DNA from: Pegea sp. RAD2-039
Lineage: Eukaryota; Chordata; Thaliacea; Salpida; Salpidae
DNA: 64,000 bases
Assembly: GCA_034620365.1 (NCBI GenBank)
Contig: JAQGEQ010000244.1
Coordinates: 186,001 to 250,000 of the forward strand
Direction of reading: 5' to 3'
A program made the translations under genes and the position numbers. Under the pieces are notes generated by a model, which did not search any database, had not been told where the DNA came from, and saw only the letters and a list, made by a program, of their open reading frames with translations. Each line of letters begins with the position of its first letter. Position 1 is the stretch's first letter. Shown here piece after piece: positions 4,911-61,433 of the stretch.

Positions 4911-5022
4911 TTCCGGACAAATACAAGATGAGAAGATTTTTTATATAAAGAAATGTTCCTCAACCTTTAATGGTATAGTTTAGTTTAGATACTCAATTTT
5001 TGATATCGACCATTTGTCGATA
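4911..5022 (+). repeat. Cassette A copy 3
   Basis: The box is TTCCGGACAAATACAAGAT. The core includes TCAACCTTTAATGGTATAG, then CAATTTTTGA and the perfect hairpin TATCGACCATTTGTCGATA. AATTTTTGA fits the Sm-site consensus (purine-A-U4-6-G-purine). The direct partner at 54553-54666 keeps the same core. Confidence 0.7.
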
Positions 5023-5604
5023 GAATAATCCGACAAATACAAGTAGCAAGCAAACAGCAGACTTTCAAATTAAATATTGCTTAAATATTTCCTTTGGTGA
5101 GAATACTTGAGGAAATTTTCAATTTAACTCCAAATATTTGTGAATATAAAAGTTTTTGAAATTTCTATTTATTTGATTTACAAAAACTTATGATGAGTAC
5201 TACATAAAAACATTTTATTCATTTTTATTTGAGACTATCGCAAACATTTCCAATTGTTCCAGTAAATCTATGATGGAATTTAGTGGATAGCAAAAAAGTC
5301 AATAAAAAGTTTTAGTAAAAACTGGCAATATTGAGCTATACAATTATTATTTTTAAAATTTTAAACTTAAAATTATTTTTTTCACTCTTTCATATTAAAT
5401 AGCGATTTATAAAAAAATTATATACTTGCGTGAAACATTTTACACATTATGAATTTTCAAATTTAATCACAATTTTTAAGTGAAAAAAGTAATTTATTTA
5501 TATATTAACATGGTTGTCAGTGTGAAAGGAAAAAGCTTAAAAAAAAAATAAATAAATCAAATAATAAACAAGTAGTTAAATATATATTATGTTATATATA
5601 TATA

Positions 5605-5710
5605 AACGAGTAGTCGATATCAAAAAATTACTCAGTTGAAGGTGTATTATAATGATAACTAAAAATGTTTATCATTATAAAAACGTTGTTTCATCTAGTA
5701 TTTGTCCGGA
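5605..5710 (-). repeat. Cassette A copy, hairpin damaged
   Basis: The minus-strand box is intact (CATCTAGTATTTGTCCGG on plus). One hairpin arm is lost: plus reads ATAAACGAGTAGTCGATA where the partner at 55344 has TATCGACGACTAGTCGATA. Confidence 0.6.
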
Positions 5711-6248
5711 AAAAATTATTTTTGAATAGCATTTGTAATTTAAAAAATTTGAATTATTGTAATCATAAGAATAGTTTTATATGTTGACAATAAAAACAAA
5801 ATTAAATTGATTTTGATAATTTTATTTAACTTATCTGAAATTTTTCTAATTTCGGTCAAAATTTTTTCAGGATATTTTTTTTATTCTATGCTTTGGAAAT
5901 TCATAGTCGCTAAGTTGAGTCAAATTTTTCTAACTGTCCATTTGTTTTTATTTACAGATTTCAATACAAGGGTTATTGAAAAAAGTGTTTAAATGTTTGT
6001 AAGGTAAAATCATTGGGAAAAATTATTTGTCTGACAGATAAGAGGAAGAAAGTATGTTAAAAAGTTAAAATTAACTTTTAAATTTAAAGTTAAATAAATA
6101 ATTTGTTTTTATAGTTCTTATTTTGTTTGATACGAAAAGTTACTAGTTAAATTAGTTTTGTTTCCAATTTAAATATAATTATTAGTAATTTCAACAAAGT
6201 TTAAAAGTAAGTCTTGAAATTCAAGTTTTCAAATATCAATTACAAAAA

Positions 6249-6310
6249 CATAGCCTGAAGCAATGCAAAGATTTAAAAATTATATATCTTCAGCGACGTC
6301 TACCGTTAAC
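6249..6310 (+). repeat. Module D copy
   Basis: Plus strand reads ATAGCCTGAAGCAATGCAA, spacer, then CTTCAGCGACGTCTACCGTT. Same order and spacing after cassette A as at 12639 and 55995. Confidence 0.7.
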
Positions 6311-7060
6311 TTGTTCAACTACAGAAACATAAAACTCAAAAATCTTTAATTAGATATTTTGAAAAACATTTTTACTTACCAAAACAATCAATTTTGCTTT
6401 AAGTAATTATATTTTATTTGGTTCTCAATAATCTTTTCTAATCATTTCTAAATACGCAAGATGTTTAGGTTTTTATTTTAACTACATCTGGTTAGCTGAA
6501 GATTTTATTCTAATTGCCAAACTCAACAATTTTGGTCATTTAATTATTTTTAAACATAAGTAAAAACGTCAAAAAATTTTTGAAGAAAAAAAATGAATGT
6601 ATGATTCCATAAATATTTAGTAATATCAAAATAATTTGCTAATTAACAAAACCTTTATATTTCATGAATAAAATTTTATAGAAAAATCAGAGCATTTACG
6701 ACCTTAAGATAAATTTTTTCAGTTATCTACGCTATATTATACGGATATAATCTATTTGATCAATAATTGAACTTTTCTACAAGTTAAACAATCTTTTTTA
6801 TTTTAGAAATAGGTAAAAACAACAAACATTTTTGTTGTCTTTTCACGAAATCGATGGGCGAATCGTAATATTTCAATATTTTGTAAAATTTCAAACTTGT
6901 GATTGACTCTTAATGTCGAATGGAACTTTAAACAAATACCTCGTGAAAGTTGTTCATATACATTTCTCGAATATTTTCAGTTTTTTTAAGTTCACTTTTT
7001 ATTTCTAATCTAATAGAGATTATTCAACAAAAATTAGTCTATGATGGTGACGTATTTACT

Positions 7061-7639
7061 GATGAACAATTTGATGATGCTAGTTTTTATGAAAGAATGT
7101 GATTACTAATGAAAGTATTTTTGTCATTTAACGTGAATATATTTGTTTAGTATCAATACTAATTTGGTTGAGTTATCATATATTGTCTTAGAGAAGAATT
7201 GTTTAAACTATTTAAATAATAATTATTTGATTATAAAAATATGCATCAGTTATGTAAGGATGTTAACCAAATATAAAAAAGTACATTACAAACTTGAAGG
7301 TTTTATTTTCAATCTTGCCTTGTTTACAATAGCTGAGATTTGTTTCATCAAATTACTACAGCAAATAAAAAGCACAAATTTCCATTAGGGAATTGTTTTA
7401 GAGTATTTTTTGTTTAGTAAATTGCAGCAAGGTCAAAGTCATATCGACTAACTCGTTCCGCATGACTGCATCCGACTTACGTGATACAAGAAAGTTAACT
7501 AAACGGGAAATCCCCTCTTCATTTGAGATAGTTGGTTTGTGAATTAAATGACTAATAAAATTATAAATATAAAAAAATAGAAATTTGAAGTGGTTACCAG
7601 ACAAGATTATACAAACATGATTCTATTAACAAACTTTAT
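7061..7639. other. No supported feature
   Basis: Two short open frames occur here (7143-7388 plus, 7398-7604 minus). Neither has a motif, coding-like composition or splice context that I can support. Confidence 0.5.
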
Positions 7640-9569: not shown

Positions 9570-10159
9570 AAAATTATTAATTTGTCTGTACTTTCATTAA
9601 TTAAGCAAGTTTGGCACTTTTCTCTTCAAATAAGTTTTTCTATTTGATTTTATCAAAGTTCATTTTTTTAAAATCATTGTTAAATTTTATAGTCAAATAA
9701 TAGTCCAAATTTAAGATTATTACAATGTATAGATTGTGAACGTTCAAAAGTGTTGATTGTCTAAAATATTAAAATGCAATTATTCGTATTATATCTTTAA
9801 CACAATTTTCAAACTATTTATTATTAAAGAATATTAAAAAGTTAACTGTGGAAATAACAGCTTTTAGATTTTAATGACAACTTTTTCCAACTATTTTATT
9901 TCAGTCTTTAAATAAACATATAAGATTTACATAAAGTTAAAGGAAAACATTTGCAAAACAAATTAAACTGTTTTTTTATTTTGTTAAATTAGAGTATGTT
10001 TTTGTAACTCAAATCATTATCCTGTTGATTAAAAATTTCAAAAACTTGAATTTTGACAAATATTTGACGTCAAATTGAAAATCCTACCAATTAATATTAT
10101 TAAATAAAACATCCAATTAGTTTTACAATTAAAATTTTCTACTAATTATCCAATTATTC

Positions 10160-10269
10160 TATCGACAAATAGTCGATATCAAAAAATTACCAGACTAACC
10201 AAATGATAACTAAATATTAAAGAACATTTCATTATATAAAATAATCTTCTCATCTAGTATTTGTCAGGA
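10160..10269 (-). repeat. Cassette A copy
   Basis: Perfect hairpin (TATCGACAAATAGTCGATA on plus), then an Sm-like T run on minus, a core containing CCAGACTAACCAAATGATAA, and a box with one change (TTTGTCAGG). Confidence 0.65.
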
Positions 10270-10518
10270 AAAAGTGCTTTTTTTTAATTTTTTATCTATC
10301 TTTTAAAATTTGATTTATGTAAAACTGTGAGACAATATTTATTTCTTTTGCTATCGATCTTATCAAAACATATTTGGTACTTCTTAGTCCATAAAACATT
10401 TCAGTTTTAAACTGCTTAATGATTTTTTAAAACTATGATTATTACAAATACTACTTGTATAAATCTAATTGTATGAGTATGAATAAACCTTGTATGAATA
10501 TTAATAAACAATATTTTG

Positions 10519-11990: not shown

Positions 11991-12088
11991 TATCGACGAG
12001 TAGTCGATATCAAAAATAAAGGTTTCATCATTATAATACAATGATAACTAAAAAATTGTTTAATATAAAAACGTTGTTTCATCTAGTA
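11991..12088 (-). repeat. Cassette A copy
   Basis: Perfect hairpin TATCGACGAGTAGTCGATA, minus-strand ATTTTTGATA, a core with GGTTTCATCATTATAATACA on plus, and an intact box. The core differs from both sister copies (5605 and 55344). Confidence 0.65.
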
Positions 12089-12638
12089 TTTGTCCGGAGA
12101 AAAATTATTTTTGAAAATTATTAGTCATTAAAAAAATTTAAATTATTTTGAATCATAAGAATAGTTTTATATGTTGACAATAAAAACAAATAAAATGCTT
12201 TTGATAATTTTATTTAACTTATTTGAGATTTTTCTAATTTCGGTCAAAATTTTTTCAGGATGTTTTTTTTATTCTATGCTTTGGAAATTCATAGTCGCTA
12301 AGTTGAGTCAAATTTTTGTAACCGTCAATTAGTTTTTATTTACAGATTTCAATACAAGGGTTATTGAAAAAAGTGTTAGAATGTTTTGTAAGGTCAGAGT
12401 CATTGAGAAAAATTATTTGTCTGACAGTTAAGAGGAAGCAAGTATGTTAAAAAGTTTAAATTAACTTTTAAATTCAAAGCTAAATAAATAATTTGTTTTT
12501 AAATTTTTAATTTTGTTTGATACGAAAAGTTACTAGTTAAAATAATTTTGTTTTGAATTTAAACTTAAATATTAAAAATTTTAACAAAGTTTATAAGTAA
12601 GCCTTAAAATTCAATTTATCAAATATCACTTACAAAAA

Positions 12639-13399: not shown

Positions 13400-14180
13400 T
13401 AAAAATAACATAATAAAATACAAAAGAGTAGTGGTGAGACCCAATTATCTTTGAAAAGTCTTTGATTAATACTAAGTTTTAGTGTTTTTATCGATATTGC
13501 AAACTATTTAACTAATAATTTTAAAATTCTTTTTCATGAATTGCAGGATAGTTTGAATAGATATAAAAACATTAAAAGTAGTTTTAAAGTAGAAACAAAG
13601 TTTTGTTTAATTCACTATTTACAGTTTCTTTGTTTATTTAATACTTTGCTACCAACTAACTTTATTGATCTTCTCTAAAAAATAAATAGAAAAAATAGTT
13701 TTAAGTAGTATTTCTCGTAACTTTTATTAATTCAAATCACTATTCTGTTGATTACAATGACAAATAACAATTTCTTCAAAATTTTTAAAATCAACAAACA
13801 TTTGATGTCAAATTGCAATTCACGGAGTTTAATTTTATTAATTGAAACATTCAAGCTGTTTTAACTTCGAATGTTTGTTTGTATTTCTCCATATAAATCT
13901 TCGCATTAATTTATCGACAAATGGTCGATATCAAAAATATTTAGAATACTACAGTTGATGTAATCTAAGCCTGAAAAACATTCTTCATCATAAAAACTTC
14001 TTTAAATCTAGTGTTTTTCCGGAGAAAATATTTCGAAAATTATTTACTTTTTCACTAATTTGACTTATTCATAATCATAAGAATAGTTTTGTATGTTGAC
14101 AAAAAAAAAGAAAATAAATTGCTTTTGCTAATTTTGATTAACTTATTTGATATTATCTAATTTTGACCGAAAGTATTTTT
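13400..14180. repeat. Dispersed repeat, also at 42395 and 47590
   Basis: Starts near AGAGTAGTGGTGAGACCCAA and runs through a box-bearing minus-strand cassette A. Direct copies are 42395-42986 and the right part at 47590-48060. A shared TTGCAGGATAGTTTGAATRG lies near 13543 and 42526. Confidence 0.65.
13912..14022 (-). repeat. Cassette A copy
   Basis: Perfect hairpin TATCGACAAATGGTCGATA on plus; minus-strand AAATATTTTTGATATC is Sm-like; core with ACTACAGTTGATGTAATCTA; the box has drifted (GTGTTTTTCCGGAG). Confidence 0.6.
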
Positions 14181-15496
14181 GCATATTTTTAAAAATGCAT
14201 TTTGGAAATTCGAAGTCACTGATTTAAGTTAAAATTTGATAACCGACACTAAGACGCTACATTTAACTAAAATAAATAAATAAATTACAAATGAATTTAT
14301 AGTAGAGAAATAATGTGATTATAAATTAAATATTAGAACAAAACCATTTTCTTAATAGTTTTAAATTCAATAAAAAACAAAACAAATTACAAATATTTTT
14401 TTGATTTCACATAGTTTGAAGTTTAATTTTAGAATACTTCATATCAATAGAAAACATATAAAATAAACCTTCAAAATATACCTGATAATAAATATCCAAA
14501 TAATTGATAACTTCAGCAAAATGAAATCTTTTGTTTAAAATCCTACAATTTGTTACATCAAATTTAAAAAAACAATTTAAGATTAAAGATTTAAGAACAA
14601 GAAAGTTGTAGTTAGATGTTTTTGCTTATATTAGTAACACAAAAAATTATTTTAGTTTTAATTTTCTAACTGTGTAAGTCATCTAACAATAACAGTAAAA
14701 CGTTTTAATTTTTTGATCAAAATCAACTTGTTCGATTACGTCACTATAAATTAATACATTGTTGAGTAATGAAATAGTCTTTAGCTAAATTCAGCTTTCA
14801 AAATTATGCTTATAATTCAATTGAGATTATCAGATTTTAAAATGACGCAAGTGATACAAGTTTCCTATCAAGGCCAAGTTAAAAACAATCAACCTTATAA
14901 ATTAACCTTTCTTAGACTTACAGTTTTGGGTTAAAAAACAAAACAATGTAAAGATATTAAAAGCAAAACACAATTTGTATGAAAAGTTTATTTTGAAATT
15001 AGCTATATGTTGATTATCAGAAAGTTAAACTTTAAAAAGTTTCTAATTAACTCATCATATAGCTTGCAGCTTTAAAATATCATCTTAAAGTTTAGATCTT
15101 TGGCAAATGTCATTAACAAAAATATTATAATGATACTTAGTTTAAGATATTTTATAATATCCAGAAATAATATTTTTAAATTTTCACCCAAAGTAACTAA
15201 CTAATTACAATAATTATATTTTAAACACTTCTTTCTAAAATACTTTCAAATTTATTGGCTAACAAAATTACCAATAAATAAAAGTTACAAAAACTAGCTA
15301 TTCAAATTGTTTAATTCCTTTTATCTATAATCAAAGTTTTCATTGTTTGTTGAAATATTGTTTGAACTTATTAAAAAATCCTAAGCTATCCTATCGACAA
15401 AATACATGTTTTCAGCAGTTATACAACTATTCTGAATTTCATGAAGTTTTCAGAGACAAGGTTACTAACCAATTACAACTAATTTGTTTTAAGTAC

Positions 15497-15613
15497 ATCG
15501 ACAAGTTTGTCGATTTCAAATGGGTGATTTTGGACTAGTGACAAGACCAACAAGTCGCTAATTGATATTTCTTTATATATATTAATTTAGTTCAATCTAG
15601 TATTTGTCCGGAC
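15497..15613 (-). repeat. Cassette A copy, partner of copy 1
   Basis: Hairpin ATCGACAAGTTTGTCGAT and an intact box. The core GACAAGACCAACAAGTCGC is the complement of that in copy 1 with few changes, showing that a core is inherited during large duplications. Confidence 0.65.
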
Positions 15614-19443: not shown

Positions 19444-19574
19444 TCTCCTGACAAATACTAGATCGAAATAAAATGATAAAAAAGAGAAATAATTTTCCAA
19501 TTGGTCACTACTTTCTTCTGTTAGTGAACGTCCGCAGTAACATTTGTTAGTTTTGAAATCGGCAATGTGTCGAT
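19444..19574 (+). repeat. Cassette A copy, diverged
   Basis: Box CTCCTGACAAATACTAGAT, a long unique core (CAATTGGTCACTACTTTCTT), TTTTGAA, and hairpin ATCGGCAATGTGTCGAT. The open frame read across it on the minus strand is an artefact of the box. Confidence 0.55.
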
Positions 19575-19641
19575 TAGTTTTATAAAAAAATTGACATTCT
19601 GCAAATATATTATTTTCAACTCTTGTCATTAATACTAACAT

Positions 19642-22090
19642 ATGAAGATATATTGATTAGCACAACGTATTTAATAGATGAAATATATCATATTTTCTTG
19701 TTCTAAACGGTGGTTTCTTTTCTGAAATAAACTGAAGATAAGAAAAACTACTTTCAAAAAAAGAGAGAAACTTTAACAGATTTTTATTTTGCATTTCACT
19801 GTGTGACACTCGATTAGTTTCTTTCGTCTCACTTTTTTTGAAATATCATCACTCATAGCAAATCCTATATCACCGATTTCCAAGCTATTACAATGAAATT
19901 TTACCATTTGTAATTTTGTAATAAATTTATTATTTCAATTAGTTGTTTTATAAAAGTTTTGTTATTTCTAATCTTCTATAAACTGTTTGTAAAAAATAAA
20001 TTAATGTTTATTCTGCATTAAATTAAAAGCTATTTTTCAAAAATAAATAGAAACTAGATTAAATGAATTATTTTTACAATACTTCACCACGTTTTGATTA
20101 AAATTATTCAGAATTGAAAAATATATTCACAGCAACTTTTGATCTTAACTTTTCAAAATTATAATCTAAAAAGTAATAACCATCCAAATGTAAAAAAAAA
20201 GATTTAAAAATTGTTGTCAAAGGAAAACATTTTCTAACAGTTCTAAGTAAACCAACCTTATAAAGGAGAATGTAATTGATAAAAAAGACTTTTGTTTTGA
20301 CAATTATTAGATCGAAAGAGATGATAGTAAAAGAAATATTATGAAACATTAGACGTATTACTTCTTCAAAACGCAGAAGATTTTGAAATAAACAATTTGT
20401 AGATATATATTGATTAATCATCTGAAAAAACTAACTTTATTTATTTTTTTATTAATGCCATTGAAGAAAGTATCAGTTTATTTTGTTAGTTAGTAATAAT
20501 GGTTATTAGTGATAATTTTATTTGAATTATCTTATTTTCTTTTGTCCATTCTTTGTTATTTAAACTTTTTTTCTATCAAATATTTTTCGAAACGAAAAAA
20601 TAATAATTATTTAATAATGACTTCAACGAAACATGGGAACTAAGTGACGTTATAAAGCAAGAATAAAATGATGAAGAAAATAAAGCAAAGATGTTTTAAT
20701 AGTGGCAATAATGATGCTGATCACAAAAGATACCATACAGCTAACTAAGAGCCATTCAAGCTTTTGACTTTAAAGTTAAAATTTTTGATTGAAATGAAAA
20801 AACTATTTTTATTAGATATTGAAAATCATCTGCTATAAACGAATCAACAATTGTATTCAAATTAAAACACAATTTTAATTAGAATTGATTATCATTAACA
20901 AGAAAAACTGAAATAAAAGTTTTTTTTATATTTTATAGTAATTTTTTTAATAAAATATGAAAAAATGTTGAAATCTTTAAGAAAAAAATATTATTTGAAT
21001 ATAAAAGTTAATCAACTTTTTTCTGTAACCATCCTATTTATCTTTTATCCAACCTAACTTGGTAGACTACAATGTTTTTTTTTTATTTAGGTTTTATAAC
21101 AGTAAAAATTAATTCAAGCAAAATACAGCTGTTATTAAAACTTCTTTAGAATAATTTATATATTTAAACCTAATTTACAGTAAGAGAATCTAAGAGTAAA
21201 TTGGTTTATTATATTTATATTAAACTTTAGATTTTAATAAAATATTTGTTTATACTTTAATCGAAAAACTTTATTAAAAACTTGAAGTAAACTAAACAGC
21301 AGTTGGAAATTAACTTTTTTTATTCTGAGTGATCTTAATTTGAAACACAAACTTTAACTACTTATTGTAATAAAAAATAACTTTACGCTTGTGCTAAAAG
21401 TTGATGAGTTTAAAAATAATAAATAAATTTAACTGAGATATGAAAAAAAAAGAATTTATCATTATAAAATAATACTATAAAAATCCAAATTATTTTTAAA
21501 ATAATGATATTTCTCTAAATAAGTTGATCTACAAAATATTATTCCAATATCAACTTTTCAGTATCTAGTTGCAAAAATTATATTTTTTGGAGGTTTTTGA
21601 TGAATTATTTAAATACTTTTTCGTTACAACTGCAAATAGTAGAAATATTGTCTAGCACCAAGTGGTGTCATTTGTTGAGTTACAAAAAGATTCTTAAATT
21701 GTAGTTTCAAACTGTTATTAATAAAGCTGTAGGAGTTCCTGTTTGTAGATATTCTACTATGCATCTAAAATATTCTGAATCACCAAACTGGAAAGTTGAA
21801 ACTCATTTCAACATTTTAATATTTTGATTATTTTAATCAGCTAATTTTCTGCAGTTTTTATATTTTTTAATTCATAAATTTACAAACTTTAATTTCATTT
21901 TTCGATTTGTAAACTTTTTAAAAATCTTTTTTTACTTAGCTGAATCAACATTAGGTTGTTATGAATCTCTGAATATTTTCAAGTTTAAAATTGCTTTAAA
22001 AAAGTTTGATGCAGAAATTTACGTGAAATAATTGTACCATGAAACTAATATTCTATAATATAATAAAATAATAAAATACCGAAAATCAGT
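19642..22090. other. Mostly single-copy AT-rich DNA
   Basis: The only repeat trace I can place is a degenerate cassette box near 20297 (TTTGACAATTATTAGATCG) without a hairpin. The minus-strand open frame 20104-20421 overlaps that box and is not supported as a gene. Confidence 0.45.
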
Positions 22091-22110: not shown

Positions 22111-22612
22111 TTAAAAAAAATAATTTTGTTTCTGATTATTATGAGCCCTTTGATGGTACGAAAGACTTGCTTTATGACGAAATTGTTTTCCACAAGCCAT
22201 GCATTCATATTGTTTTTTGACAGTATGAGTTCTTCCGTGTTTTGTGAGATTTGAACTTTTGACTAAACCTTCCACAAACAATACAATCATATGGTTTCTC
22301 ACCAGTATGAGTTCTTTCATGATTGACAAGTTGAGATTTGAAATCAAATTGTTCACAACAAGTCAAATATTCATATTTGTATTTGCAATTTGAAACTTTT
22401 TTAAGCAAACATTTTTTTTCTTCAATTACTACTTCTGCTGATTTATTACTTTTGGATGACGAATTACTCTTCTTTGTTATATTTTCTCTTTCATTGTTAC
22501 AAGTAATTTCATCAACGATACATTCGTGCCAACCATCCTCTCCACTAAATAATTTATTTGAATGTTGCTTTTTTGAAGTCTTATGGTCGATGTTACTTTT
22601 AGTTGATAACAA
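22111..22612 (-). pseudogene. C2H2 zinc-finger gene, frameshifted
   Basis: Three consecutive C2H2 fingers are visible on the minus strand, which bind DNA in intact relatives. An acidic and serine-rich N-terminal part (from 22612) is followed by finger 1 with [11 protein letters not shown]; its first zinc cysteine is a tyrosine (YEYLTC). Finger 2 begins YDCIVCG, then the frame shifts near 22270, and its second half ([11 protein letters not shown]) continues in the next frame, which also holds finger 3 ([10 protein letters not shown], then YHQRAHN), ending at 22111. Restoring the usual 12-residue C-to-H spacing implies loss of two bases. A sequencing error or a spliced 5' part cannot be excluded. 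The divergence of finger 1 favours decay. Confidence 0.75.
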
Positions 22613-22976
22613 CTTTGCTTCCGATAAATTTGTTTATTGTCCATCAAATTTAGTTTCAATCTAATTAGGTACATGCATACTTCACATAAAAAGATGATAA
22701 ATAAATAAAGTATTTTTTAAAAAGCAAACAGTTTCTGATATTAATATATATTGGCTAAATATATGATTTTAATTTAATGAAAAAAAAAATTAGGTTTTTT
22801 TACAAAAACAGTTTCTTAAAACTCTTTTAACAAAAATAATAATTTTAGAAAATTAAAAAAATATATTTTGTTTCTTTGTTCAAATCCTGCAAAACACATT
22901 TAATAAAAAGAGAAAATTTACTGAAGCTTCTTCAAGAACTTTCTACCAAACAACATTTCACAAAAAGTGTTTAACA

Positions 22977-24389: not shown

Positions 24390-24794
24390 CTGAAAAACAA
24401 TATTGTATTATCTTTAGGTATTAGTTTAAAACTAAGCTTTGTAATTACTTTGCAAGCTCTAATAAATAAATACCTTTTAGCAACAATTTAAAAATATTTT
24501 CAAGTGTTTGTAAAAGTTTTAATGTTTTATTTACTATTCTTTATTTACATATCAACAACGTTGTTGTCTTTTTTTTTGTTACTGTAAGTTTTAAGTCTAT
24601 GAAGTAATAAAAGAGAAGTGCAAAGATATATGTTGAAAAGTTCTCATCTTCGCTATTATTTAAGATCTAACTAATTTGAATTATTCATGCTTTTGTGTAA
24701 GGCTAAGCAAATTAGTATAAGATACTGATTTTTATATACTTCTGCATATGTTAAAGATGTATAAATCATTTTCACAGACTGATAATCCATAATA

Positions 24795-29679: not shown

Positions 29680-31930
29680 AATTCTTTATTCTAACTTTTT
29701 TTGGTTAAACAAATTTCAATAAATCTGAAACTGAAATATATGAAAAATTTTATGATAAATTGAATTAAATAATAAGAACTTTCATTTACTTTTGCAATAT
29801 AGTTTTGGCTAAAAATCCAATCAAAAACAAAAACAGAATTCAAAGTTGTCCTGAGTTTTCAATTGAATAAATAAAATGTTAACTAATTTAACGGAAAAAG
29901 ACAAAATACACAAATTAATTAATGCCTTATAACGTTTATAACTTCTATGGTATATAATAGATATAAATAAAACTACTGTTAGTAATTAAGCTATTTCAAT
30001 AAAATTGTTGATAGTATTGAGTAGTCATTTTTAAGCCATTACTGGTACTTATTTAACTAATTAGATAAATAAAAGCTCCAAAAAACTAAATGTTTGAAGC
30101 TAAGAATTACAATTTAATTATCATGCTTTCTTAAGTTGGACTTGAAATGGTTGAAATCTATCTTAATAAGCAAAGCCTTTTTTTATGAATGATCTTGTAA
30201 ACATTAATTCTAATGCTGACTTAGATAGTTTAAACGAAAAGTTATTATTTTACATATCATTAATTACATTGTGGAATTTTGACTGATAAAGCAACAGTTT
30301 AACAACGCATCTCTAGAAAAAAGGGAAAATAATCTTGTAAGATCTATATGTAGATCTATATTTAGCTGCAGTTTGTTAAGCTTTTTTTTATTGTACAAAA
30401 AATAATTTGGAAAAACATGAAAACTTTTTTTTTTGACTCAACAATAACTGTTTTATAATATAATCAATATTTGAACCAACGAGATAATTTTTTATTTTAT
30501 ATTCACTTTTACAAGATCTTTTTTGTAAGCTGTAATTTTGACAACATTAAAACTTGAGATTAAACTTTTTTATAATTTAAACTAAACTCTTATTAGAAAT
30601 TTAAAAAGAATTTCTATCAAAAAATTAGAAAAAAAATAATTCAAAATTATTACAGTCATTTTTACACAAAACATAATTTTATATTTATATTAAAAAGAAA
30701 TCTTTTGAAACTGATTTTAGAAAAGTTGATTAATAGCAAATAGTAAAAACATAATTTACATTTGTTTTAATAGAAAACATGTTTTTGCTGTTTAAAATAG
30801 ATTAAGCTTATACAGAAAATTGAATTCTGGAAAGTAAGTTTTGTCCGGGCAAATACTAGATCGAATGAAATTAATAAATCTAATAATGAAATAGAGAAAT
30901 TTTAGCAATCTTTTCTGAAATAGTTGTAGCGTCAAATTTTTTGAAATCGACAAACGTGTCGATGTCCATAAAACAAATTAGTTGAAGTTAGTTAGTAAAC
31001 TTGTCTCTGAAAACTTCATGAAATTCAGAATAGTTGTATAACTGCTAAAGACATGTACTTTTGTCGATAGGATAGCTTAGGATTTTTTAATAAGTTCAAA
31101 CAATATTGCAACAAACAGTGAAAACTTGAATAAGAAGAATGTTGTTAATATTATAAATAAAAGGAATTAAACAAGTTGAAAAGCTATTTCTGGTAACTTT
31201 TATAGAAGGATAAACTCGCAAGACCATAAACTTAATAATGGTTTAGAAGTAAGTGTCTAAAATATAATTATTTTGTTTAATTATTTACTTTGGCAGAAAA
31301 ATAAACAAAATAAAATGTGCGGATATTATAACAAAATCTTAAGGTAAGTATCATAGTAATATTTTTGTTGATGACAATAGTCAAAACTCTAAATGTTAAG
31401 GTGATATTTTGAAGCTGTAAGCTATATAATGAGTGAAATTAAAAACTTTTTTCTGCTTAAACATTCTGATAATCAACATATAACCGATGTCAAAATAAAG
31501 TTGTTATAAATATCTGCTTTGGTTTTAAGAATTTTTCTTTGTTCTATATTGAAGCCAAAACTGTAAGTCTTGGAAAGGCTAATTTAGAAGGTTGGTTTTT
31601 TCTACATTGGCTTGGATAAGAAAATTGTATCTCTTACGTCATTTTAAAAGTCTGAAAATGTTAATTGAATTATAAGCAGAATTTTGAAATTCAAATTTAG
31701 GTGAAATTTATTTTATCACTCAACAACACTCCATTTCATAATGACGTAATCGAACAAGTTGATGTTGATACAAAAATATCATAACTTCTTACTGTTGTTG
31801 TTAGATGACTCGCACAGCAAGAAGGTTGAAGCAAAAATGATGACCAATTCAAATTAAGTAATTTTTGTGTTGTCAATTTAAGCAAAAAAACATCTAACTG
31901 CAACTTTCTCATTCCTAAAATTTTAAAATC
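29680..31930. repeat. Direct repeat with 3240-4900 and 1440-2065
   Basis: The first 1.6 kb matches 3240-4900. Beyond about 30660 it also matches 770-2065 in the same direction, showing how the families overlap. Holds cassette A (30838-30963). Confidence 0.7.
30838..30963 (+). repeat. Cassette A copy
   Basis: Box TTGTCCGGGCAAATACTAGA, a core with TCTTTTCTGAAATAGTTGTA, Sm-like AATTTTTTGAA, and hairpin ATCGACAAACGTGTCGAT. Confidence 0.65.
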
Positions 31931-34922: not shown

Positions 34923-35032
34923 CGCCGGGCAATTACTAGATGAAAAAATCTTTTTATATCGAGATATGTTCTTAGCTCTGGATTAGAAAAAGCAGATATT
35001 CAGTTTATTTTTGATATCGTCCATAGTCGATA
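34923..35032 (+). repeat. Cassette A copy
   Basis: Box CGCCGGGCAATTACTAGATG, core GAAAAAGCAGATATTCAG, TATTTTTGA, and hairpin TATCGTCCATAGTCGATA with a shortened loop. Confidence 0.6.
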
Positions 35033-36560: not shown

Positions 36561-36790
36561 CCAAACATTGTTTATTCATACTCATACAATTAGCTTTTTA
36601 TAAATCGTATTTGTAAAAGTCTCAGTTTTAAAAAATCATTAAACAATTTAAAACTAAAATGTTTTATGCACTAACAAGTACCTAATGTGTTTTTAAAAGA
36701 TTGATAGCAAAAGAAATAAATATCGTCTCACAGTTTTACATAAATCAAACTTTTAAAGATAGATAAAAAAAATTCAAAAAATCACTTTTT

Positions 36791-36898
36791 CCTGACAAAT
36801 ACTAGATAAGAAGATTTTTTTAAATAAAGAAATGTTCTTTAGCATTTAGTGATAACCATAAAGCTGTGGTAATTTTTGATATCGACTATTTGTCGATA
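36791..36898 (+). repeat. Cassette A copy
   Basis: CCTGACAAATACTAGATAAG, then GAAATGTTCTTTAGC, a core with GATAACCATAAAGCTGTGG, Sm-like TAATTTTTGA, and perfect hairpin TATCGACTATTTGTCGATA. Confidence 0.7.
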
Positions 36899-38039: not shown

Positions 38040-38425
38040 GTTTAATCCGAATAAATGTTAACTTAAACTTTGAAATTGAAAAACACATTCCTATAAATAT
38101 GCAGAAAAATAGTTTCAATCAAAATAAGAAAAATCTCGAATAAGGTAATTAAATTTACTGAAAACATTTCTTATTTCGTTTAACTGTTGTATTTTAGGGT
38201 CGTTTACAAAATTTTAACTTAAATTAGTGATTTGAAATTTCCAAAACTTTTTTTTAAAAGTGTTCAGAAATATTTTCGAATAAAGTTAGAAAAACCTCCA
38301 ATAAGAAAATCAAAATTAGTAGAAGCAATTTTTTTTTAATTTTTTTGTCAACAAACATAACTATTATTATGATTACGAATAATTGAAATTTATGAAAAGA
38401 TAATAACTTTCAAAAATGTCATTTC

Positions 38426-38541
38426 TCCCAACAAATACTAGATCAGAAGATATAATTATAATAAAGATTATTCCTCAATCCACAATCCTCTGTGATAGAT
38501 TCCGTAATTTTAATTTTTATGATATCGACCATGTGTCGATA
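38426..38541 (+). repeat. Cassette A copy
   Basis: Box CTCCCAACAAATACTAGAT, then TTATTCCTCAATCC, core with ACAATCCTCTGTGATAGATT, and hairpin TATCGACCATGTGTCGATA. The T run is interrupted (AATTTTTATGA). Confidence 0.65.
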
Positions 38542-38975: not shown

Positions 38976-39546
38976 TTTATTTAAATGTCAAATTGTTTTG
39001 TTTAACTCTTTTTATTTTATAACGCGTTTTTTGCTGTGTATTATGATTTCCACAATGAATTTTAATAACTTCTTCCGTTTTAATATTTTAATTTTCAGAT
39101 ATTAAAATTCAGATTTTAAAACAAATTCAGAAAATTTTCAGTTTAAATATATAATGTAAATGTTTTGTATAAAAATAATGAAATATGCGATTTGCAGTTC
39201 TAAAAAATTAATTTTTTCTTATTATTATAGAAACAATGCGTTTATATCTTTGTAAGAATATTTAAGAAAACGGGATTAATGTTTATTTTGCGTTAAATAA
39301 AAACGAAATCTTCATTAGTCTTAAAACCTAATTTTAATCAACTATTTTTATAATATCTAATTAAGTAAAAAAAAAACATTACTAAAATTATACAAAAAAA
39401 GCTTAAACAAATTCTACTTTGTCAACTCATTAAGATTCAGTAAAGCTGACTTAAACAAACTATTTGCGATTTTTCTCATTTTTCAAAAAGTTTAGTAAAT
39501 TAAATTTTAAATTGTAATTTATAATTGCATTTTACTATTTATTTTT

Positions 39547-39657: not shown

Positions 39658-39907
39658 AAATCATTCTTTATTAATACTCATACAGGGTTTATTCATAACT
39701 ATACAATTAGCTTTATATAAGTAGTATTTGTAATGATCTTAGTTTTTAAAAAATCAATAAACAGTTTAGAACTAAAATGTATTATGTACTTTGAATTAGG
39801 AAATAGTTTCTCTATAAGCTTGATAGCAAATTGAAAAAGAATTTGTATCACAGTTTTAAATAACTCAAACTTTTAAAGATAAATGAAATTTAACAAATTT
39901 TCTTTTT

Positions 39908-40014
39908 CCTCGCTAATACTTAATGAAAAGATCTTTTTTTCACGAAATGCTCCTTAACCTGTAGATATAAATATAAAACTTCAATATAATAATTGAAATC
40001 GACCATTTGTCGAT
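39908..40014 (+). repeat. Cassette A copy, box decayed
   Basis: CCTCGCTAATACTTAATGAA in place of the box; ATAATTGAA and perfect hairpin ATCGACCATTTGTCGAT retained. The hairpin outlasting the box fits separate constraint or chance. Confidence 0.55.
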
Positions 40015-40099
40015 AAAATAATCTGATAAGTACAACTAACAAGTAACAGCAAACTATTAAATTTAAAACTGCTAAAGTGTTTTATATAATAATTTTAAT

Positions 40100-41364: not shown

Positions 41365-41474
41365 CTCCGGACAAACACTAGATATAAAGTAGTTTTTATT
41401 ATGAAGAATATTCCTCAATACTCGGTTGAACAGATTAAAGATGAAAATATTTTTGATATCGACCATTTATCGAT
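41365..41474 (+). repeat. Cassette A copy
   Basis: CTCCGGACAAACACTAGATA, then AAGAATATTCCTCAATAC, core with TCGGTTGAACAGATTAAAGA, Sm-like TATTTTTGA, and hairpin ATCGACCATTTATCGAT. The short open frames 41257-41481 and 41284-41466 run across it and are not genes. Confidence 0.65.
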
Positions 41475-41844
41475 AGATTAAACCAAATAAATCTTAATTT
41501 AAACTTCTAACTTAAAAAACAAATTTTATAAATATTCAGAAATAGTTGTAATCAAAATCAAAAAAATCTCGAATAAGGTAGTTAAATTTACTGAAAGCAT
41601 TCCTTATTTCGATTAATTGTTGTATTTTTGGTCGTTTACAAAATTTTAACTTAAATTAGTGATTTGAAACTTCCAAAACTCGTTTTTAAAAGTGTAAAAA
41701 CATTATAAAAATTTTAATTTTGTCTGATACGAAAAGCTACAAGTTAAGTTAGTTTTGTTTCTAATTTAAATATAATTATCATAATTTCAACAAAGTTTAA
41801 ATGTATGTCTTAAAACTCAAGTTATCAAATATCACTTACAAAAA

Positions 41845-44527: not shown

Positions 44528-44643
44528 TATCGAAGCATGGTCGATATCAAAATTATGAACTTATAAATGCAATATTAGATATATGATCTTTTGGATAAAC
44601 ATCTTCATAATAATAACTTCTTTTCATCTAGTATTTGTCCGGA
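44528..44643 (-). repeat. Cassette A copy
   Basis: Hairpin TATCGAAGCATGGTCGATA on plus, minus-strand ATAATTTTGATATC, core with AAATGCAATATTAGATATAT, intact box. Its inverted partner is 57375-57489. Confidence 0.65.
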
Positions 44644-44970
44644 ATAAAGTTATTTTTCGAAAATGATTTTTTTTTAATTTGATTTATTCATAATCATAAT
44701 ATTGATTTGGTATACTAACATTGGAGATAAATACAAATTGCTTTTGGTAAGTATGATTACTTTATATGAGATTTTTCTAATTTTGAACGAAACTGTTTCT
44801 GGAAAATATTTTAAATTTGTTTTCGAAGTTTGAAGTCACTGAGTTGAGTCAATTTTTTGTAACCGACTATTAATTTTTATTTACAAATCGCGATAATACG
44901 ATTCTTCTAATCTGGTTGAAATTTTCAGGAATAAGGTTATTAACCAGTTGCTACTTATTTCATTTTGAGT

Positions 44971-45104
44971 TATCGACAAGTTCTCAATTTCAAATTGTTA
45001 ATTGCATAAAAGTAACTGATCAAATCTTCGCTGAAAGTTCTTATACTTAATTAAAATATATAATTTAAAAAACTTAATTTCTTTCAATCTAGCATTTTTC
45101 CGGA
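44971..45104 (-). repeat. Cassette A copy, diverged
   Basis: Plus-strand TATCGACAAGTTCTCAATTT (hairpin broken) and box CAATCTAGCATTTTTCCGGA. Related to the subfamily at 15497. Confidence 0.5.
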
Positions 45105-45689
45105 CAAAACTAATTTTCAAAAATTAAGTTTTTTCTATAAGCTAGATTTATTTTAAACAACAAAAACTTTCTTTTATTTTGACAACCATTGTAAATTATG
45201 TTTTTAATATTTGGTATTTATCAATTTTTCTAAAATCATTTTCAAAAAATTTATTCTTACTATAAATATAAAAGTATGTTTTATGTAAAAATGATTGTAA
45301 CAATTTTAAATGAATTTTTTTCTAAATGTTTTATAGAAATTGTTTTTGAATTTATAATCAGAGTTTGAAACTTTTTTAGAAATGAAATTGATTAGTTCTA
45401 AGCTTGAAGTGAAAAAGTTCTAAAATTAGAATATTGTTTACTAATTTGCTATAAAAAGTTAGATTCAGATTGTCGTCGAATGTTGTAGATTTATATAATA
45501 AAAAGTATTTTACTAATATTTACCTAATATTTACCTAGTGTTTTTTTTATTTTGTTATTACTTCATAAGTAATAAGTTTTATAGATTCGATCAAATAAAC
45601 TTTTTATTTCAATAAGATTTATAATGAATAAAATTGATAATATTCGATATTTGTATGCTTGCATGCTGATCCAAAATCTCATATTTGAA

Positions 45690-47589: not shown

Positions 47590-48060
47590 ATAAATTCAAA
47601 TTACTATCCCGCTGAATTCAACAACAAATAACAATTTCTTTAAAGTTTCAAAAGTATAAAATCGACAAACATTTGATGTCAAATTGCAATTCACGGAGTT
47701 TAATTTTATTAATTGAAACATTCAAGTTGTTTTAACTTTGTCTTGTTTGTACTTCTCCGTATAAGCCTTCCCATTAATTTATCGACAAATGGTGGATATG
47801 AAAAATAACCGACTAGTAAATCTAGTAGAAGATCTAATCTGATACTGAAGAATATTCTTCATAATAAAAACTTCTTTTCATCTAGTGTTTGTCCGGAAAA
47901 AACTAATTTTTCCAAAATTTTTCTCTTTTTCACAAATTTCACTTATTCATATTCATAAGAATAGTTTTGTATAATGACAAAAAAGATAAAAACAAATTGC
48001 TTTTGCTTGTTTTGAATACTTTATTTGATATTTTTTAATTTTTATCAAAGTTTTGAAGAA
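47590..48060. repeat. Third copy of the 13740-14180 repeat
   Basis: Direct copy containing the minus-strand cassette A at 47780-47897. Confidence 0.6.
47780..47897 (-). repeat. Cassette A copy
   Basis: Hairpin TATCGACAAATGGTGGATA (one mismatch), core with CGACTAGTAAATCTAGTAGA, ATATTCTTCAT, and box CATCTAGTGTTTGTCCGG. The core is longer than in its relative at 13912. Confidence 0.6.
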
Positions 48061-48089
48061 AAATAAAAATTTTAAAAGCAAGTTTTTCT

Positions 48090-48197
48090 CCTGATAATAT
48101 TAGATGAAAAGATATCTTTATAAGAATAAATGTTCTTAGCTCTTGGTATGATAGCTTCGATCAGCTTGATATTTTTGAAATCGACCATTTGTTTATA
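48090..48197 (+). repeat. Cassette A copy, diverged
   Basis: CTCCTGATAATATTAGATGA, AATGTTCTTAGCTC, core with TATGATAGCTTCGATCAGCT, TATTTTTGAA; the hairpin second arm is lost. Confidence 0.5.
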
Positions 48198-50780: not shown

Positions 50781-51021
50781 ACAAAAAATTATTTTTTAAC
50801 ATACAAATAAGTTTTTTTTTAGTTCATACAATTACCTTTAGAAAAAAGTAAATGTAATAGTTTTAATTTTGAAAAATAATTTAAAACTTTAAAACTAAAA
50901 TTTAAAACGCACCAAGAAGTAGGAACTCATGTATTTAGAAGATTATTTACAAAAGAAATCAATATTGTCTCAATGTTTTAAATAAATCAAACTTAAAAAA
51001 AAAAATCGAAACTAACTTTTC

Positions 51022-51131
51022 TTCTGACAAATACTAGATGAAAAGATAATTTTATATTAAGAAATATTCTTTAACCTTTATGATACTGCATCACATGAGT
51101 TACAATTTTTGTTATCGACAATTTGTCGATA
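51022..51131 (+). repeat. Cassette A copy
   Basis: TTCTGACAAATACTAGATGA, AATATTCTTTAACC, core with TATGATACTGCATCACATGA, CAATTTTTG, and hairpin TATCGACAATTTGTCGATA. It is the last full cassette before the visible RPB9 exons. Confidence 0.7.
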
Positions 51132-52323: not shown

Positions 52324-52373
52324 TACTTCTTTTTTTATTAAAAAGTTCTTCAACATCAAAATTTTGCTACCAA

Positions 52374-52540
52374 GAACCACTAGCAGCCAGCAACACCGAC
52401 TATCAACCAGCAACACTGACTACCAACCAGCAACAATCACTAGCAGCCAGCAACAACCATTTCGAAGCAGCAACAACCACTTGCAGCCAGCAATAACCAC
52501 TAGCAACCAGCAACAACCACTACCAACTTGTAGCCAGTCT
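52374..52540. repeat. Minisatellite related to the 37.5 kb array
   Basis: About eight units of ACCACTAGCAGCCAGCAACA and ACCGACTATCAACCAGCAAC. It starts 50 bases after the RPB9 poly(A) signal. The open frame 52364-52558 over it is an artefact. Confidence 0.9.
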
Positions 52541-52549
52541 CAATCCAAA

Positions 52550-54552: not shown

Positions 54553-54666
54553 ATTTCCGGACAAATACTAGATAAGAAGGTTTTTTATAAAAAGAAATGT
54601 TCCTCAGCCTTTAATGGTATAGTTTAGTTTAGATAATCAATTTTTGATATCGACCATCTGTCGATA
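54553..54666 (+). repeat. Cassette A copy, partner of copy 3
   Basis: TTCCGGACAAATACTAGATA, CAGCCTTTAATGGTATAG, Sm-like CAATTTTTGA, hairpin TATCGACCATCTGTCGATA. The core matches 4911-5022 with few changes. Confidence 0.7.
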
Positions 54667-55343: not shown

Positions 55344-55453
55344 TATCGACGACTAGTCGATAACCCAAATTTACACTGCTGACAATGTATTATAATGATA
55401 ACTAAGAATATTTCTTAATATAAAAACGTTGTTTCATCTAGTATTTGTCCGGA
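55344..55453 (-). repeat. Cassette A copy
   Basis: Perfect hairpin TATCGACGACTAGTCGATA and intact box. Directly after the hairpin, 10 of 25 aligned bases differ from the partner at 5605, while the following 30 or so are nearly the same. Confidence 0.65.
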
Positions 55454-55994
55454 GAAAAATTATTTTTGAAAATTATTAGTCATTTAAAAAATTTAAATTA
55501 TTTAGAATCATAAGAATAGTTTTATATGTTGACAATAAAAACAAAACAAATTGCTTTGGTGAATTTTATTTAATTTATTAGAGATTTTTCTAATTAGGTT
55601 CGTTATTTTTCAGGATATTTTTTAACATTTATGCTTTGGAAATTCATAGTCGCTAAGTTGAGTAAAACTTTTGTAACCGTTAATTAGTTTTTATTTACAG
55701 ATTTCAGCACAAGGGTTATTGAAAAAAGTGTTTGAATATTTTGTAAGGTCAGAGTCATTGAGAAAAATTATTTGTCAGACAGATAAGAGAAAGAAAGTTT
55801 GTTAAAAAGTTTAAATTTACTTTTAAATTCAAAGTTAAATAAATAATTTGTTTTTAAAATTGTATTTTTTTATTGATACGAAAAGTTACTAGTTAAAATT
55901 GTTCTGTTTTCAATTTAAACTTAATTATTCATAATTTCAACAAAGTTTAAAAGTAAGCCTTAAAATTCAATTTATCAAATATCACTTACAAAAA

Positions 55995-57088: not shown

Positions 57089-57374
57089 CAAAACATCCTG
57101 TTACTTTTATCAATAACCCTTGTATTGAGATTTATAAATAAAAATTAATAGTCGGTTACAAAAAATTGACTCAACTCAGTGACTTCAAACTTTGAAAACA
57201 AATTTAAAATATTTTCCAGAAACAGTTTCGTTCAAAATTATAAAAATCTCAAATAAAGTAATCATACTTACCAAAAGCAATTTGTTTTTATCTCCATTGT
57301 TAATATATCAAATCAATATTATGATTAAGTATAAATCAAATTTAAAAAAAATAATAATCGAAAAATAACTTTTT

Positions 57375-57489
57375 TTCGGACAAATACTAGATGAAATGAA
57401 GTTATTATTATGAAGATGTTTATCCAAAAGTCATGCATCCAATATTGCATTTATAGGTTCATAATTTTGATATCGATCATGCGTCGATA
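57375..57489 (+). repeat. Cassette A copy
   Basis: TTCGGACAAATACTAGATGA, GAAGATGTTTATCC, core with ATGCATCCAATATTGCATTT, ATAATTTTGA, hairpin TATCGATCATGCGTCGATA. Confidence 0.65.
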
Positions 57490-58004: not shown

Positions 58005-58135
58005 CATTGATTCCAGTTTTTATACTTTCTTTTATAATTTTTTTGTTACTTGTATAATGAAGTAAATGTGGTTTGACTTTCAATAAGATTTTAATCAATG
58101 AGATTACTCACTAACTTCAAAATAAATATTAGATT

Positions 58136-58250
58136 ATCGACAATTTGTCGATTTCAAAATGTTCTTAGAAAAGTAAAAATCTAAGAGTTTAAATCTCAGT
58201 AATACTTCTTCGGTTTAACAATTTCTTTTGATCTAGAGTTTGTCCGGACG
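58136..58250 (-). repeat. Cassette A copy
   Basis: Hairpin ATCGACAATTTGTCGAT, minus-strand ATTTTGAA, box GATCTAGAGTTTGTCCGGAC. Tandem relative of 59583-59697. Confidence 0.6.
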
Positions 58251-59461: not shown

Positions 59462-59489
59462 ACTTTGTAAGTGTTTGATTAAAACCTTT

Positions 59490-59775
59490 TTAATCTATTT
59501 TAAAATGAAGTAAATGTGGTTTGACTTTTTATAAGATTTTGTTTACTGAGATTACCCAATAAGTTCAAATTAACAAATACATCACCGACAAGTTGTCGAT
59601 TTCAAAATGCTTTTGGAAATTAAAATTGTAAGAATTTAAATCTCAGTAATACTTCTTCCTTTTATCAATTTCTTTTGATCTAGAGTTTGTCCGGACGGAA
59701 ATCAATTCAGAATTCTAATTTTCAATTAAAAGTTTTCTTTTTATTTTATACTGTGAGAAAGTTGCTTTCTTTTGA
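59490..59775. repeat. Direct duplicate of 58040-58320
   Basis: Both copies start at ATGAAGTAAATGTGGTTTGA and end near TTTTATACTGTRAGAAAG, with a minus-strand cassette A inside. They lie 1.45 kb apart. The open frame 59687-59875 starts in this repeat and is not a gene. Confidence 0.75.
59583..59697 (-). repeat. Cassette A copy
   Basis: Hairpin ACCGACAAGTTGTCGAT and box GATCTAGAGTTTGTCCGGAC. The core keeps TTTAAATCTCAGTAATACTT with its sister at 58136. Confidence 0.6.
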
Positions 59776-59981: not shown

Positions 59982-60100
59982 AATCAGGCTTAGCAAATAA
60001 CATTATACCGAAACCTGAAGAACGTTTTTTTCTTGGATTTTGTCTTATAACGCAGTCGTTAAAATGGTCAAATTTCTTGAAAAAATCACCTATTTTATCT
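59982..60100 (+). CDS. Candidate internal exon, unknown product
   Basis: Acceptor TTTTTTAACAG (ending 59981) and donor GTAAAG (60101) bound a 119-base exon. With two leading bases from a split codon it encodes 39 residues including ANNIIPKPEERFFLGFCLIT and SLKWSNFLKK. Residue mix (P, E, R, G, C, W) is far from AT noise. Its entry phase does not join directly to the candidate at 59355. No family recognised. Confidence 0.45.
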
Positions 60101-60417
60101 GTAAAGGTATTTCAAATAGTCAGCATTATTACTAACATGATGTGAAAAAAATTTTATGTAAATTTTGATTTCTATATAAAGTTCTTAACAAAATAATTAA
60201 TTTTATTGTTTACAATATTAGAATGTTACACCTTTTATTAGATATAATGAAATAGCTTAAGATATTTTTCTACATGTTATATAATAACATATCATTATTG
60301 TATTAAATTAGTAGAAACATTTGTTTTTAATTTTATCGGAAACAAGAAAAATTATTCTTATGATTATGGTTAAATCAAATTTATGAAATGAACTTTTAAT
60401 TTTTTAAAAATATTTTT

Positions 60418-60530
60418 CTCTGGACAAATACTAGATCAAAAGAAGTTTTAATAATGAAGAACGTTAGTCATTCTTCACTCATTATTAATTAGAAAAAATT
60501 TATATTTTTGATATCGACCATGTGTCGATA
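60418..60530 (+). repeat. Cassette A copy
   Basis: CTCTGGACAAATACTAGATC, AAGAACGTTAGTCATTC, core with TTCACTCATTATTAATTAGA, Sm-like TATTTTTGA, perfect hairpin TATCGACCATGTGTCGATA. Confidence 0.7.
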
Positions 60531-60972
60531 AATTAATACCAAAATTAATACTAAGAAGTACAAACAAAATTTTAAGATGAAAGCTGCTTGAATTTATCAA
60601 TGAAAGAAATTCGATGGACTGAATTGCAATTTGACGTCAAATATTTGTCTCATTTCTAGTATTGAAATTTTGTAGAAAATATTATTTGTCGTTGTAATCA
60701 ATAGAATAGTGATTTGATTTACAAAAACATACGATGATTACTACATAAGAATATGTTTTTTATGTTTTTTATAGGATTTGATTGAATTTAGTGGGTAGCA
60801 AGATATTCAATATATAAATTTAGTAAACTTTAGCAATAGTGAGTGAGAAAATAGTTTTTTTTTTAATTTTATTCTTATAATTTTTGTTTTTCTTTCATTT
60901 CAATATATTCAGCAATTCATGAAAAAATTTAATCTAACAGAAGTTAAAAATATTAAAATATTTTAATTTTTT

Positions 60973-61070
60973 CAGTCACAAGATGTCTCTATAAAAGTTT
61001 TTTTTCATATTTTAAGAGATTATAATTGTTGTACCTTGTTACATACTAGAAAAGCTCAGTGACTTTAAGA
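60973..61070 (+). repeat. Module B stem copy
   Basis: CAGTCACAAGATGTCTCTAT to AAAGCTCAGTGACTTTAAGA; the outer stem is intact, the inner lost. Confidence 0.55.
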
Positions 61071-61318
61071 TTCAAGTACAATGTTTTTTAATATTTTTAT
61101 CGATTTTATTAAAAAATTGTTATAATTAAAAATATGTACAAGGTTTTTCTAATAATTTTATGTGAATAATTCTTGAAAAGTTTTTAATTAAATTGTATTA
61201 TTCACTAAGAAGTTGTGAGTAATTTTTATGTAGGATGGAACAGAATAGAAATAAAACTTGTCTCAATGTTTTAAATAAATCAAAGTTGTAATGAATTTCT
61301 TAAATCAAAAAATATTTT

Positions 61319-61433
61319 CTTCGGAAAAATATTAGATTTCAAGAAATTGCTAAAAGAAAAAATTAACTTCAACTTCGTCTCCATGTTGGAAACGTTAAGC
61401 AACAAATTTTTTTGAAATCGACAATATGTTGAT
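61319..61433 (+). repeat. Cassette A copy, diverged
   Basis: CTTCGGAAAAATATTAGATT, core with CTTCGTCTCCATGTTGGAAA, Sm-like AATTTTTTTGAA, hairpin ATCGACAATATGTTGAT in which one pair has become G-T (a G-U wobble in RNA). Confidence 0.55.

Follow-up and report, generated by a model that had tools for sequence, protein, structure and literature searches.

Known Sm-class RNAs are few and evolve slowly. SmY RNA is small and multicopy and is not known to be hypervariable, and spliced-leader (SL) RNA genes use a promoter of the proximal sequence element (PSE) type. U7 small nuclear RNA (snRNA) is described as an RNA of about 60 nt in which a 5' region of about 15 nt pairs with the target, histone pre-mRNA, and is followed by an Sm site and a 3' terminal stem-loop (PMC7026596). 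Nematode Piwi-interacting RNA (piRNA) genes are reported to be driven by SNAPc motifs and to be clustered in some species; the Ruby-motif (21U) genes have a SNAPc-type motif before a short individual sequence and form large clusters of single-RNA genes (PMC6436959). SL RNA genes carry an Sm site and stem-loops and are multicopy (PMC7986045). Here we describe a family of short cassettes with likenesses to each of these three systems, found in a 64,000-nt stretch of the genome of the salp Pegea sp. RAD2-039 (assembly GCA_034620365.1, contig JAQGEQ010000244.1, called contig 266 below, bases 186001-250000). This whole stretch is referred to as the window; its GC content is 23%, and the genome comprises 105.7 Mb in 387 contigs.

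Each cassette has a conserved box, a core that is hypervariable between copies, and a T-run followed by a hairpin. The box matches the promoters of the species' own snRNA genes in sequence and in spacing, changes in the hairpin stem are strand-biased, and the cassettes are clustered, together with segmental duplication. We read the cassettes, with some reserve, as probable SNAPc-driven RNA polymerase II (Pol II) genes for Sm-class RNAs of U7 size whose single-stranded 5' guide can be replaced; put more cautiously, they would be an Sm-class snRNA-like gene family, with the possibility of a guide repertoire. Like U7 snRNA, the predicted RNAs are short, with a 5' part before the Sm-like site and a terminal stem-loop; unlike U7, they have a spliceosomal-type Sm-like site, AAUUUUUGA instead of AAUUUGUCU, and their copies, numbering in the hundreds, have 5' parts that are unrelated. 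No description of such a family was found in a search of the open-licence PMC literature.

Anatomy and genomic distribution of the cassettes

A preliminary description, made from the letters of the window, had proposed about 28 cassettes between 4911 and 61433. The number held, since 28 positions each have a box, a core and a T-run/hairpin with at most five substitutions in the hairpin element. The span was nearly right: it runs from 1015 to 61434, and two cassettes lie further upstream, at 1015 and 4452 (Table 1). The 19-base box has 23 matches in the window at up to three mismatches and none in 100 shuffles, and AATTTTTGATATCGAC has 31 matches versus 3.9 expected. In the window and 126 fetched loci together, the T-run/hairpin element followed 125 of 129 boxes at up to four mismatches, and the same search found it in 5 of 2500 letter-shuffled stretches; most of the fetched loci were chosen for having a box, and 125/129 is thus a rate among boxes and not a genome census. 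These 125 boxes with a T-run/hairpin make up the cassette set used below, and in 120 of them the distance from box to T-run/hairpin is 82-96 nt.

The stems fall into two classes, A (...TTTGAAATCGAC) and B (...TTTTTGATATCGAC). A palindromic box and a GAARAATRTTCCTCA-like block had both been ascribed to every cassette. The box is there, but its palindrome GTCCGGAC occurs in 5 of the 28 copies, all of class A, and hence does not define the family; the block is present in part of the copies but not in all. Degenerate copies are found at 20294, 39906 and 44971-45105. At about 45654 begins a copy of the core of locus L119 that comes together with an Sm-like site and a stem, but the 100 nt upstream of it contain no box.

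When the whole genome was searched, the 17-base box gave 546 matches at up to two mismatches, not all of them intact cassettes, versus 7 for a reversed-pattern control. Among the 100 box matches listed, 41 are on contig 91, 24 on contig 95, 22 on contig 254 and 13 on seven others; three contigs hold 87 of these 100, and contig 266 is outside the listed part. A 17-mer carrying the box in its GTCCGGAC form had 27 exact matches, all on contigs 91, 95, 254 and 266, and a whole-cassette pattern with one box variant had 24, of which 23 were on the same four contigs and one on contig 286. The cassettes sit within multi-kb segmental duplications of up to 96% identity, in both orientations and on several contigs. 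Contigs 60, 191, 255, 136 and 261 have a few cassettes, mutually similar; one of them, L098 (contig 191, 132693-133003), has an unusually GC-rich core and is outside the large clusters. At L047 and L048 (contig 3, about 493138-500676) an exact CCGGACAAACACTAGAT box is followed by mutually similar sequence that has no cassette stem and matches nothing in Rfam; these sites may be a different RNA gene driven by a PSE.

Predicted promoter, variable core and terminal stem

The box had been guessed to be a PSE, and the snRNA genes of the same genome bear this out: U6 and U2 genes, and U1 genes more loosely, have at the canonical position an element that matches the box. Eight loci of each kind were fetched, out of 15 U6, 19 U2 and 19 U1 matches in the genome, and an element close to CCCRCAAACACWAARC was present in all of their promoters. 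Its ACAAA place begins 60-61 nt (U6), 55 nt (U2) or 54 nt (U1) upstream of the RNA start. At the PSE place, 8/8 U6, 7/8 U2 and 1/8 U1 loci fetched have the 10-mer ACAAACACTA without a mismatch; the cassette box reads ACAAAYACTA. A matrix of the snRNA sites was run on the 57 of 125 cassettes that have 80 upstream bases (the rest have 79); of 568 positions, the box came first in 44 of the 57 and third or better in 52. In the cassettes counted, the distance from the PSE A to the start of the TATA-like block is 22-25 nt, compared with 23-25 nt in U1 and U2 and 30 nt in U6 (read by eye), a promoter spacing that fits U2/U1 (Pol II) rather than U6. Further, the pyrimidine-purine step peaks at box index 58 (24 of 52 cores, about 12 expected; the next peaks are 20 at index 60 and 19 at index 64). 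This index lies 53 nt from the PSE A, near the start expected of a U1/U2-like gene (54 nt in U1, 55 nt in U2).

Core, promoter, stem and flanks were compared pairwise in 122 of the 125 cassettes, and the same 122 were grouped into flank families and core types. An earlier pair metric inflates core identity in distant pairs, through scattered gaps, and the main figures given here are those of the later pairwise comparison. That cores differ between copies had been noted before; the variation proves to go far beyond that of the flanks. At a flank identity of at least 0.90, core identity was below 0.6 in 114 of 289 pairs (45 cassettes), with shuffled cores at about 0.51, and control segments of equal length fell below 0.6 in 0/289 pairs upstream and 0/289 downstream. 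At a flank identity of at least 0.95 the distribution was bimodal, with 51 of 79 cores above 0.9 and 17 of 79 below 0.6. The core is often replaced, not just diverged. A position-wise identity profile was drawn from 245 pairs of 81 cassettes with flank identity of at least 0.85 and core identity below 0.75, a selection for divergent cores that shows borders and not frequency; identity is lost from box index 60 on and regained at the T-run. The variable block spans approximately the predicted start to the Sm site, and the PSE and the stem stay conserved, beyond the flanks, while the core does not (124 of the 125 cassettes in the earlier metric and 122 in the later one).

Grouped by flanks, the 122 cassettes make 41 families; grouped by core, they make 53 types. 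Each of the six largest flank families contains three or four core types; that of 12098 and L108, for instance, contains four. Replacement is not always complete, in that core types 0, 2 and 44 belong to one family and still have common stretches, and ordinary substitution is also present within core types. Clustering at 75% gave 53 distinct cores, or 52 once one very long core is dropped; 50 of the 53 are 23-37 nt long, and structure in the cores does not exceed that of shuffled cores (mean z -0.11 +/- 0.13, n = 52).

Exchange between families was considered as the source of new cores and set aside. Among 157 pairs with core identity of at least 0.78, 16 had one or both flanks below 0.75; both flanks were below 0.75 in three, all involving L044:8454. 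Because core-alike pairs with diverged flanks are so few, no clear donor pool is seen in this sample; 7 of the 53 core types were found in two flank families. The 52 distinct cores were also searched for off the cassettes in the 271 kb examined. Eleven matched at up to two mismatches, and of these matches ten are further cassettes with an upstream box and one is the box-less copy at 45654. The remaining cores gave matches in the 271 kb that were about as poor as those of shuffled cores.

The preliminary description had likened the T run and G-A before the terminal hairpin to an Sm site with its 3' stem, and the arrangement is present: A-T3-7-G-[AGT] directly precedes the stem in 111 of 125 cassettes. 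At the sequence level an Sm-like site is thus followed by a stable 3' stem-loop, a result that is partly due to the search design. The stem has six to seven pairs and the loop 4 to 6 nt, and the predicted RNA is 48-62 nt long for 50 of the 53 distinct cores. In the inner six pairs of 58 distinct hairpins there were 22 G-U pairs as read on the cassette strand, 5 A-C, 15 other mismatches and 1 double change, from C-G to T-A, in the copy L119. Given the preference for G-U on the cassette strand, the stem behaves like RNA of that strand, as a DNA palindrome would favour neither strand.

Weighing the reading and its alternatives

In the proposed mechanism, SNAPc at the PSE would recruit Pol II, leading to a short capped RNA, and an Sm ring would assemble on the U-rich site (A-U3-7-G-A) against the 3' stem-loop. 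The single-stranded 5' part, about 23-37 nt and often replaced between duplicates, would pair with a target; by analogy with the 5' end of U7, this variable part is most likely a base-pairing guide. The clusters would then be a diversifying repertoire of guide small nuclear ribonucleoproteins (snRNPs). The broader proposal is that hundreds of guide snRNPs, encoded in clusters, form an evolving repertoire in an animal lineage, with guides exchanged wholesale between duplicates under strong diversification, in parallel to piRNA clusters and on a U7/spliceosomal chassis; we put it forward tentatively and hold it doubtful. If it were true, an snRNP chassis could carry a variable guide repertoire, a parallel to the nematode SNAPc promoters for piRNAs. 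Replacement would affect chiefly the leading 25-35 nt of the predicted RNAs, in a family of hundreds, with borders near the predicted start and the Sm site. The swap of a short internal block amid 95% identical flanks also raises a question of mechanism, which these copies make testable.

A number of points weigh against the reading of the cassettes as Sm-class RNA genes. Transcription is predicted from the DNA, and capping, Sm-ring binding, guide function and targets are likewise putative. The PSE match is short and the matrix scores are moderate. With the snRNA matrix, only 7 of 57 boxes scored above the 95th percentile of the maxima from shuffled regions, and of the 30 top sites in the window only 3 are boxes; in a scan with the cassette matrix, U6 sites had p values of 0.012-0.052 and U1/U2 promoters were mostly not significant. 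As the matrix scores are moderate, the case for a PSE rests on the short exact match and on position, and these scores, along with the exact counts in U1, lead us to hold the reading slightly less firmly and the piRNA and mobile-element alternatives slightly more. The 245-pair profile has a separate identity dip at index 35-39, in the promoter and before the predicted start. The pairs are not independent, as the 114 with divergent cores come from 45 cassettes, and contigs 91, 95, 254 and 266 may include alternative haplotypes. The count of Sm motifs was partly fixed by the search design, and 14 of 125 cassettes are without A-T3-7-G-[AGT]. The hairpins, tallied by hand from a table, were counted as distinct sequences and not as independent events; the outermost stem position is unpaired in 31 of 58, and including it lifts A-C from 5 to 10. 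No target was found: one core searched genome-wide had 12 matches, of which 11 adjoin boxes and the twelfth lies elsewhere and has 3 mismatches; the reversed control had 2. Finally, 13 cassette-type loci compared with Rfam had no match at E <= 1, which also sets them apart from SmY RNA.

In the window itself a tRNA was the only Rfam match. U7 was tried as a candidate identity and rejected: the Rfam U7 model gave three sub-threshold matches, the best with E 0.4, and 6 of 14 control genomes also matched, which marks these matches as noise. The combination of a U7-type Sm site (AAUUUGUCU) and an Rfam U7 match was not found.

The cassettes might instead be piRNA-like genes, an explanation we think unlikely. 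SNAPc would drive capped precursors of about 25-35 nt, the core would be the mature Piwi guide, and the T-run and stem would serve as a pause or termination signal and would not belong to a stable RNA, with the nematode 21U genes as the parallel. As reported for nematode piRNA genes, the loci are clustered, the promoters are of PSE type and the fast-changing piece starts at the predicted start (PMC6436959). The core lengths bracket the 28-nt nematode precursors, and a Piwi-clade gene (a protein stretch) is present in the genome. Unlike 21U genes, however, the cassettes keep a TATA-like block and have no clear YRNT initiator or 5' U at a fixed distance; the start positions show T at close to its background frequency, and YRNT occurs in 11 of 52 cores at index 57 and in 9 of 52 at index 58. 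Nematodes have more Piwi-domain genes than the three places that gave Piwi-domain matches in this genome. In addition, a conserved Sm-like site and a strand-biased stem are not described for nematode piRNA loci in the parts of PMC6436959 at hand, and both would be left unexplained.

Somewhat less probable again is a non-autonomous mobile element or an old satellite-like duplication, in which the PSE-like box and the hairpin would be chance contents of the conserved parts and no functional RNA would be made. The multi-kb repeats in which the cassettes are found, in both orientations and on several contigs, speak for such an origin. The homology of distant pairs, however, ends at many places (880 alignments of 48 cassettes, of which 306 end near +40, shortly before the core). 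The preliminary description had named a transposon as the alternative; with no single common boundary to the homologous blocks of distant copies it is weakened, and it is still a rival. Plain decay, moreover, does not yield a box and stem conserved beyond the flanks together with a core that is not, and the spacing mirrors that of snRNA promoters.

Spliced-leader RNA genes with highly diverse leaders, which would be one form of the Sm-class idea, appear very unlikely. A PSE, an Sm site and a 3' stem are common to SL RNA genes, and Trichinella is reported to have 15 leaders (PMC7986045). A donor score of at least 6 was reached by 9 of 52 cores versus 4.2 expected, and GTA and GTAA are mildly enriched. 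Taken over the 52 cores, the donor test was nevertheless negative: 15 are without any GT (12.5 expected), and the mean donor score was 3.23 versus 3.16 +/- 0.26 for shuffled cores. Unlike SL RNA genes, the cassettes do not consistently have a donor GT before the Sm site, and their 5' part differs between close copies. The Sm site lies 23-37 nt from the predicted start in most, with little room for an exon, a donor and a spacing of 20-60 nt, the distance at which SLIDR by default places the donor GT upstream of the Sm site (PMC7986045).

RNA polymerase III (Pol III) genes that end at the T-run and give tiny unstructured RNAs are hardly credible, for although four or more Ts stand at the core end in 110 of 125 cassettes and U6 is the best sharer of the PSE, the PSE-TATA and PSE-start spacings fit U1/U2 and not U6 (read by eye), one class A core type (1015, 15496-15613) has three Ts only, and the stem is left unexplained.

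Coordinates, neighbouring elements and minor observations

Table 1. Cassettes of the window and one example of the palindromic element found downstream of them (positions from the first base of the window)
Feature	Position	Strand
Cassette, class A (box, core, Sm-like site, 3' stem)	1015..1134	+
Cassette, class A	4452..4569	+
Cassette, class B; predicted RNA ~4970-5022	4911..5022	+
Cassette, class B, 3' arm partly degenerate	5601..5711	-
Example of conserved palindromic element (CAATTTGACGTCAAATATTTGT) downstream of cassettes	10056..10077	-
Cassette, class B	10160..10270	-
Cassette, class B; core unlike that of L108 despite 96% identical flanks	11991..12099	-
Cassette, class B	13912..14024	-
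Cassette, class A	15496..15613	-
Cassette, class A, long core	19445..19575	+
Cassette, class A, degenerate stem	20294..20405	+
Cassette, class A	30843..30964	+
Cassette, class B	34923..35032	+
Cassette, class B	36789..36898	+
Cassette, class B	38425..38541	+
Cassette, degenerate box	39906..40015	+
Cassette, class B	41365..41475	+
Cassette, class B	44528..44644	-
Cassette, class A, degenerate	44971..45105	-
Cassette, class B, mutated stem	47780..47898	-
Cassette, box degenerate and apparently one base shorter	48088..48197	+
Cassette, class B	51021..51131	+
Cassette, class B	54555..54666	+
Cassette, class B	55344..55454	-
Cassette, class B; core unlike that of L069 despite 96% identical flanks	57374..57489	+
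Cassette, class A	58135..58249	-
Cassette, class A	59583..59696	-
Cassette, class B	60418..60530	+
Cassette, class A, G-U change in stem	61319..61434	+

A second conserved element, the palindromic CAATTTGACGTCAAATATTTGTC, has 18 matches in the window versus 0.01 expected. Thirteen of the 18 sites lie 213-234 nt downstream of a listed box, and the other five adjoin box-less hairpins (read by eye). In class B (29 cassettes) the element is better conserved than its surroundings. On the opposite strand it reads GACAAATATTTGATG, which resembles the PSE box GACAAATACTAGATG (10056, 13794, 60627 and 15 more sites); judged from this resemblance, the cassettes might have a convergent second promoter at the downstream palindrome. 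Both classes also have a AATAAATCAAAYTT-like block about 40 nt upstream. The octamer TGACGTCA occurs within 130 nt upstream of 7/8 U1, 2/8 U6 and 0/8 U2 loci. The downstream palindrome, the AATAAATCAAAYTT-like block and TGACGTCA may be distal elements, and are offered as a lead only.

The same octamer is found downstream of cassettes and forms the palindrome in a tandem array at 38761-38977, where an 18-base unit, TTGATGACGTCATTGATG, is repeated about 12 times. Two further arrays, at 37505-37884 and 52371-52527, are built of a 20-base unit, AACAACCACTAGCAACCAAC, that is C-rich on one strand and lies in very AT-rich surroundings. An open reading frame of 781 residues at 24786-27131 (+) matched nothing in Pfam or among PDB sequences at E <= 0.1, and a frame of 142 residues at 22205-22633 (-) gave a C2H2 zinc-finger match below the Pfam cut-off.

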